Shown here piece by piece: positions 39,263 to 39,449 of a stretch of DNA of 64,000 nt (the stretch's first letter is position 1; every line of letters begins with the position of its first letter). A program made the position numbers and the translations under genes. Source of the DNA: Amycolatopsis bartoniae (GTDB lineage: Bacteria > Actinomycetota > Actinomycetes > Mycobacteriales > Pseudonocardiaceae); the NCBI RefSeq assembly GCF_014191255.1, contig NZ_JACHWH010000001.1, positions 2,418,001 through 2,482,000 on the forward strand, read 5' to 3'. The notes beneath the pieces were generated by a model that made no database searches, was not told where the DNA came from, and saw only the letters and a list, made by a program, of their open reading frames with translations.

Positions 39263-39292
39263 TTGATCCCTCCCGTCCACATTCCTTAGTTT
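39263..39292 (+). promoter_or_regulatory. Promoter of the Y RNA-like transcript and Ro60 gene
   Basis: TTGATC (39263-39268), an 18-base spacer and TAGTTT (39287-39292). Six bases later is A39299, one base before the start of the long terminal stem. Box quality, spacing and start point agree well. Confidence 0.65.
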
Positions 39293-39298
39293 GGTACA

Positions 39299-39427
39299 AC
39301 CGCGGCTCGCCGGAGACCGGTGCGCAGGCGAGGGTTACTTCTGGCTCCCAGGTTCGATTCCTGCCCGTGCGGGTCCGCCCGCACGGAGACCTTCGCCGTC
39401 CTGATCTCGGTCTTCGGCGAGCCGCGG
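39299..39427 (+). ncRNA. Candidate bacterial Y RNA (tRNA-like) in the Ro60 leader
   Basis: The ends 39300-39320 and 39407-39427 form a 21-bp stem with only two G-U pairs and no mismatch. Inside lie a tRNA T-arm mimic, CAGG-TTCGATT-CCTG (39349-39363), and directly after it a 9-bp hairpin CCGTGCGGG-TCCG-CCCGCACGG (39365-39386). A terminal stem for Ro binding plus a tRNA-like module is the described architecture of bacterial Y RNAs such as YrlA, which are encoded next to Ro60 orthologues. Here the Ro60 start codon is only 22 bases downstream with no terminator between. The RNA would therefore be either the mRNA leader or processed from it. Confidence 0.75.
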
Positions 39428-39449
39428 CCCAACTTCGAGGAGGCGAGAG

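Follow-up and report, generated by a model that had tools for sequence, protein, structure and literature searches.

A putative reduced YrlA-type Y RNA directly upstream of the Ro60 gene of Amycolatopsis bartoniae

The roles of bacterial Ro60 (Rsr) and its Y RNAs are known from very few species. Propionibacterium propionicum is an actinobacterium. Ro60 RNPs containing Y RNAs have been precipitated from it (PMC11277228). YrlA RNAs are described as 90–150 nt long, with D, T and acceptor arms (PMC8394870), and a bacterial Y RNA has been reported to superpose, circularly permuted, on tRNA (PMC11472068). In Deinococcus radiodurans, the Y RNA is described as having two hairpins, one of them T-arm-like and bound by PNPase (PMC6181284), and as tethering Ro60/Rsr to PNPase (PMC4726728, PMC3997798, PMC6181284). 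The gene order given for Salmonella is rsr–yrlBA–rtcBA, with the Y RNAs after Ro60 (PMC7790460), unlike the locus described here.

We analyzed a 64,000-nt stretch of the Amycolatopsis bartoniae chromosome, referred to in the following as the window, in which a preliminary description made from the sequence had pointed to a Y RNA-like element in front of the Ro60 gene. The locus is a minimal case: a single Ro60 gene, a single Y RNA detected in the genome and, apparently, a single transcript.

Fold and identity of the element

Segment 39299–39449 folds at −89.3 kcal/mol (z = −4.95), and none of 200 dinucleotide shuffles folded as well. The structure is the one put forward in the preliminary description: a terminal stem of 21 pairs between 39300–39320 and 39407–39427, with two G–U pairs and no mismatch, encloses a T-arm mimic and a 9-bp hairpin with a TCCG loop, both found where that description had placed them (Table 1). 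The minimum-energy fold differs at the inner end of the stem, where U39407 bulges out and G39320 pairs with C39406. Among uninterrupted stems with a 60–120-nt loop, this one is the longest in the window, the next distinct site having 16 pairs; among ten shuffled windows, no such stem reached 20 pairs and one window reached 18.

Table 1. Features of the Ro60 locus in the window (positions are those of the window).
Feature	Position	Strand	Basis
−35 element TTGATC	39263..39268	+	sequence; conserved in aligned leaders
−10 element TAGTTT, 18-base spacer, predicted start A39299	39287..39292	+	A39288 and T39292 invariant in 10 rows; start predicted
Y RNA element, reduced YrlA type (putative)	39300..39427	+	fold, z −4.95; covariance model R1 match 39304–39424
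Terminal stem, 5' arm	39300..39320	+	fold, sequence, stem survey of the window
Presumed Ro60-binding region, 5' side, CCGGTGCGCAG	39317..39327	+	invariant columns in alignment A1 of relatives; binding putative
TACTTC motif, 5' side of inner loop	39336..39341	+	family-wide conservation
T-arm-like hairpin CAGG-TTCGATT-CCTG, 4 bp	39349..39363	+	fold; aligns with T arm of R1
Acceptor-like hairpin, 9 bp, TCCG loop	39365..39386	+	fold; aligns with acceptor-like hairpin of R1
Site of the D arm of relatives; none in window element	39387..39387	+	deletion in R1 alignment; 0/4 D-arm pairs
Presumed Ro60-binding region, 3' side, CTGATCTCGG neighbourhood	39401..39409	+	conserved columns in alignment A1
Terminal stem, 3' arm, with bulged U39407	39406..39427	+	fold, sequence
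Shine-Dalgarno GAGGAGG, 9 nt past stem	39437..39443	+	sequence
Ro60/Rsr (TROVE) gene, 510 aa	39450..40982	+	Pfam PF05731, E 6.7e-16

An alignment of 23 diverse Ro60 leaders (A1), all from other genera, so that training excluded the window and its whole genus, yielded 40 pairs by RNAalifold. Two-sided changes occurred in 26 of these 40 pairs, the kind of compensatory change among TROVE leaders that the preliminary description had proposed looking for. In the A1 consensus, the terminal stem carries a conserved bulge and is joined by an inner stem, the T and D arms and an acceptor-like hairpin. The covariance model R1, derived from A1 with a short calibration that makes its E-values rough, matched the window at 39304–39424 with 67.9 bits (E 7e-15); the second-best match in the window, at 23.3 bits, fell in tRNA genes. 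In the whole genome, the window element was the only strong R1 match among the 150 candidates scored out of 9399.

Ro60 loci were taken from the contigs of 71 named genomes and from further genomes. Seven of the 19 Amycolatopsis genomes had Ro60 and the other 12 gave no match; in samples of the family and of the order, it was present in 71 of 297 and 43 of 397 genomes, respectively. R1 elements were found upstream of Ro60 in 147 of the 153 loci searched, a count that includes the 23 training loci; the six without one were L001, L081, L055, L068, L130 and L155, and three further loci were omitted as copies of searched ones. All six phage and plasmid loci fetched (four phage, two plasmid) also had R1 elements upstream of Ro60. 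These counts come from covariance-model searches, used in place of a first regular-expression survey that missed many elements and misjudged D arms. An apparent orphan Y RNA copy in genome G002 (L079) was rejected as a chance match (14.9 bits, E 0.096), its flanks lacking Y RNA features. A Y RNA leader before Ro60 is thus the general pattern among the actinobacterial Ro60 loci examined.

Taken together, the R1 match, the covariation and the recurring position upheld the proposed Y RNA-like identity, and the comparison supports 39300–39427 as a reduced YrlA-type bacterial Y RNA, made up of a putative Ro60-binding stem, an inner stem, the T arm and the acceptor-like hairpin. The leader is GC-rich and the T stem is short, at 4 bp, which would suit a plain GC-rich hairpin or RNA attenuator whose T-arm likeness is accidental; given the strength of the R1 match, the two-sided changes and the consistent position before Ro60 across loci, we regard such an accident as extremely improbable.

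The other search that the preliminary description had proposed, with a YrlA covariance model, went against it: the window element was absent among the matches of Rfam YrlA (RF02553) up to E 10. At a low threshold, the same model matched two full-size relatives at E 9.2e-10 (47.3 bits) and E 7.3e-7 (38.0 and 37.6 bits), below its cutoff of 69. At its own cutoff, it reported none of these elements in the 13 related loci tested, so Y RNAs of this kind are easily missed. The window element is filed as a Y RNA, though not as a full YrlA, since the two-hairpin Y RNAs of D. radiodurans have been described, in the accounts cited above, with no mention of a D arm.

The Rfam tRNA model scored the Y RNA of one relative (L066, 2830–2897) above its cutoff, at 33.3 bits, and automatic annotation may list Y RNAs such as this one as tRNAs. 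ARAGORN calls in several leaders were likewise rejected as separate tRNA genes; here the program took Y RNA modules for odd tRNAs.

Many full-size actinobacterial Y RNAs (L088, L062, L066, L106, L139 and others) have an anticodon-arm-like hairpin with a 7-nt CTNNNAA loop in the linker between TACTTC and the T arm. The hairpin occurred in 29 of 89 distinct linkers, against a shuffled mean of 0.6, and the loop alone in 32 of 89; the three flanking pairs formed in 91 of 96 cells, compared with 5 to 54 of 96 for slid partners. Together with the T, acceptor and D arms, this predicted anticodon-like arm makes up almost a whole permuted tRNA. The window element has no such hairpin. The passages describing YrlA in PMC8394870 mention only D, T and acceptor arms, and no anticodon-like arm.

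Promoter, spacing and transcript

The promoter that the preliminary description had read as TTGATC-N18-TAGTTT is present, with hexamers at 39263–39268 and 39287–39292 and an 18-base spacer. Ten leaders were aligned over this region: the window, its closest relative G011 and eight chosen by eye, all from another genus. TTGA was found in 10/10 and TTGATC in 8/10 (8/8 and 7/8, respectively, among the eight chosen by eye). The G011 promoter, TTGAAC-N18-TACATT, lies at the same offset and has the same spacer length as that of the window; upstream sequences differ in other lineages. Downstream, ATG39450 lies 22 nt beyond the Y RNA stem, and no T run occurs in those 22 nt (39428–39449), in agreement with the claim that no terminator intervenes.

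The spacing of relatives was surveyed by regular expression, which found the element in 123 of 143 representative loci. The distance from stem to ATG was at most 60 nt in 102 of these 123 leaders (median 41, range 10–262), and neighboring Y RNA elements were at most 18 nt apart in 71 of 75 pairs, with nine overlaps arising from greedy stem extension. Such short gaps leave little room for separate promoters. A second element of about 60 nt was observed in other leaders (L007, L088–L091, L118–L144 and others), about 260 nt before Ro60 and a few nucleotides upstream of the tRNA-like one; it has a stem like the presumed Ro60-binding one and no tRNA-like part. Two elements lay within 420 nt in 75 of 123 leaders.

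These features make it likely that the Y RNA is the 5' leader of the Ro60 transcript. That part of the preliminary description is supported on sequence grounds: the promoter lies at the foot of the stem, TTGA is conserved in all ten rows, no terminator follows and the elements of relatives are tightly packed. The arrangement is not, however, peculiar to this locus, the same order being general in the actinobacterial loci sampled.

The most likely arrangement appears to be co-production, a single transcript yielding both Y RNA and Ro60. In full, we consider it probable that a reduced YrlA-type Y RNA is made from one promoter on a transcript shared with Ro60 and is then cut or trimmed out. The fold, homology, genomic position, promoter conservation and D-arm loss are direct observations. 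For the transcription start, co-transcription, processing, Ro60 binding and partner, we infer the following. The promoter at 39263–39292 would start the transcript at the foot of the Y RNA stem, and transcription would continue from the Y RNA into Ro60. The Y RNA might be released by, for example, a double-strand-specific RNase acting on the 21-bp stem or, alternatively, be trimmed by nucleases that halt at the stem and its bound Ro60. Ro60 and its RNA partner would thereby be made together, in cis. Ro60 would be occupied by the stem of the Y RNA, whose T-arm region might tether a partner such as PNPase, by analogy with D. radiodurans. In-step production of Ro60 and RNA from one message could be tested at this locus.

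Some relatives give a different picture. TTTTT was found within 22 nt of the Y stem in 7 of 123 leaders, compared with a fraction of 0.0017 of random places; these include L108, L109, L115 and, from the window's own genus, L083. The Deinococcus gobiensis element also has a T run after its stem. Because the T runs directly follow the stem, the Y RNA in some lineages may arise by termination rather than by cutting from an mRNA. By extension, the window element could be an independent small RNA with its own promoter, ending before Ro60, which would be expressed by readthrough or from another promoter. We think this unlikely for the window, where the 22 nt after the stem have no T run and no room for a promoter.

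It is also possible that Ro60 controls its own message: the stem lies only 22 nt before the start codon, which makes it a real possibility that Ro60 binds the leader of its own mRNA. The Y RNA would then stay on the mRNA, and free Ro60 would bind the stem, 9 nt before the Shine-Dalgarno sequence, blocking translation or guiding decay of its own message until sufficient other ligand RNA drew it away. The lack of a terminator and the tight spacing in relatives fit such a leader, and so do the predicted Shine-Dalgarno hairpins of the other leaders, where mean pairing was 0.75, compared with 0.60 in shuffles, and 26 of 102 ranked in the top 3 of 60. In the window, however, predicted pairing of the Shine-Dalgarno sequence was 0.23, against 0.22 in shuffles; the site is predicted to be open, not hidden. 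The spacing to the start codon varies from 10 to 262 nt, and co-production already explains the position without any control. We therefore hold an autoregulatory leader to be conceivable at this locus but rather unlikely. A Shine-Dalgarno hairpin, considered as a general mechanism, was enriched in relatives and absent in the window, and was dropped from the explanation of this locus. In leaders from Streptomyces and others (among them L020, L045 and L107), a C-rich stretch between the Y RNA and the start codon is the predicted Shine-Dalgarno partner; the window lacks it.

A more specific proposal, which we consider doubtful, is that the intact Y RNA leader limits Ro60 synthesis and that two Amycolatopsis-like lineages separately lost the D arm, the minimal Y RNA that remained still recruiting its partner through the T arm. 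If true, Ro60 output would be set by the free Ro60 left over from its RNA substrates. No report of Ro60 controlling its own message was found in the literature searched, a scope that excluded the main Y RNA papers, so that publication elsewhere is possible.

The missing D arm

The tRNA-like part of the window element is incomplete, a point missing from the preliminary description. Of the model's pairs, it has 4/5 of the T arm, 7/7 of the acceptor-like hairpin and 0/4 of the D arm, which in the R1 alignment is cleanly deleted between 39386 and 39388. Its tRNA mimicry is at best partial. What is special at this locus is the reduced tRNA-like part, not the leader position.

Scored by the same pairs, 146 distinct leaders comprised 135 with both T and D arms, five with neither and six with a T arm and no D arm. 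The last six come from the window and from the five congeners whose Ro60 is intact; elements with only a T arm also occur as extra copies in three loci (L003, L094 and L095). A tree of 67 Ro60 proteins did not place the six owners of the reduced form in one group, implying two changes, and none of 200 bootstrap trees united them. A single origin was rejected on the Ro60 tree (p 0.004), which suggests that the D arm was lost twice or that leaders were exchanged, with the caution that the window Ro60 sits on a long branch. Exchange is kept as an alternative because the congeneric Y RNAs are 88–92% alike at 39317–39366.

In G011 (L078, 1300–1750), the closest relative, and in Amycolatopsis sacchari (L001), the Y RNA breaks off after its 5' half and continues directly as Ro60 sequence from near codon 48: one deletion removed the rest of the Y RNA together with the start of Ro60. 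With parts of both gone from the closest relative, the Ro60/Y RNA system is dispensable. The window element might then be a decaying relic, a reduced Y RNA on its way out together with Ro60. Besides the broken locus of the closest relative, the restriction of D-arm loss to the window genus (6 of 146 distinct leaders), the presence of Ro60 in just 7 of the 19 genomes of the genus and the long branch of the window Ro60 point this way. On the other hand, the Y RNA has kept a long, unbroken stem, the 510-aa frame of Ro60 is open, and in the five congeners, which retain the reduced RNA, the stem differs from that of the window by five changes, each compensated or two-sided. These differences favor selection on the reduced RNA, and we judge decay very unlikely.

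With members that have and lack the D arm, the family makes the need for this arm in Y RNA function directly testable.

Comparison with known Y RNAs

The window element shares with YrlA (RF02553; Salmonella, Mycobacterium smegmatis and others) the terminal stem formed by the 5' and 3' ends, the T arm, the acceptor-like hairpin and adjacency to Ro60. It is matched by a model of full-size relatives that themselves match RF02553 below cutoff; it differs from YrlA in having no D arm and no direct RF02553 match. With the Y RNA of the Deinococcus RYPER complex (Ro60/Rsr, Y RNA and PNPase), as that RNA is described, it shares two inner-loop hairpins, one of them T-arm-like. A D. gobiensis leader in the plasmid and phage set matched R1 at E 5e-16 and stands directly before Ro60, as in the window; unlike the window element, it carries a D arm and its stem is followed by a T run, and the likeness to D. 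radiodurans is by description only. The reduced form is thus a variant and not a new kind, since both the two-hairpin Y RNA of D. radiodurans and the permuted tRNA likeness of bacterial Y RNA have been described.

In the four phage loci, R1 found one or two elements upstream of Ro60. The phage Y RNAs in the alignments shown (BRock, Quantum) carry a D arm and lie on phage genomes, whereas the window element is chromosomal and lacks one. In L171–L174 (Streptomyces and Gordonia phages), Ro60 lies among tRNA genes, and the one or two Y RNA elements before it are unannotated. Chen et al. in 2014 reportedly identified likely Y RNAs close to Ro60 in more than 250 species and phages, each of which had one or more tRNA-like Y RNAs. 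If that account is right, a genome with a single Y RNA that has no D arm would be an exception.
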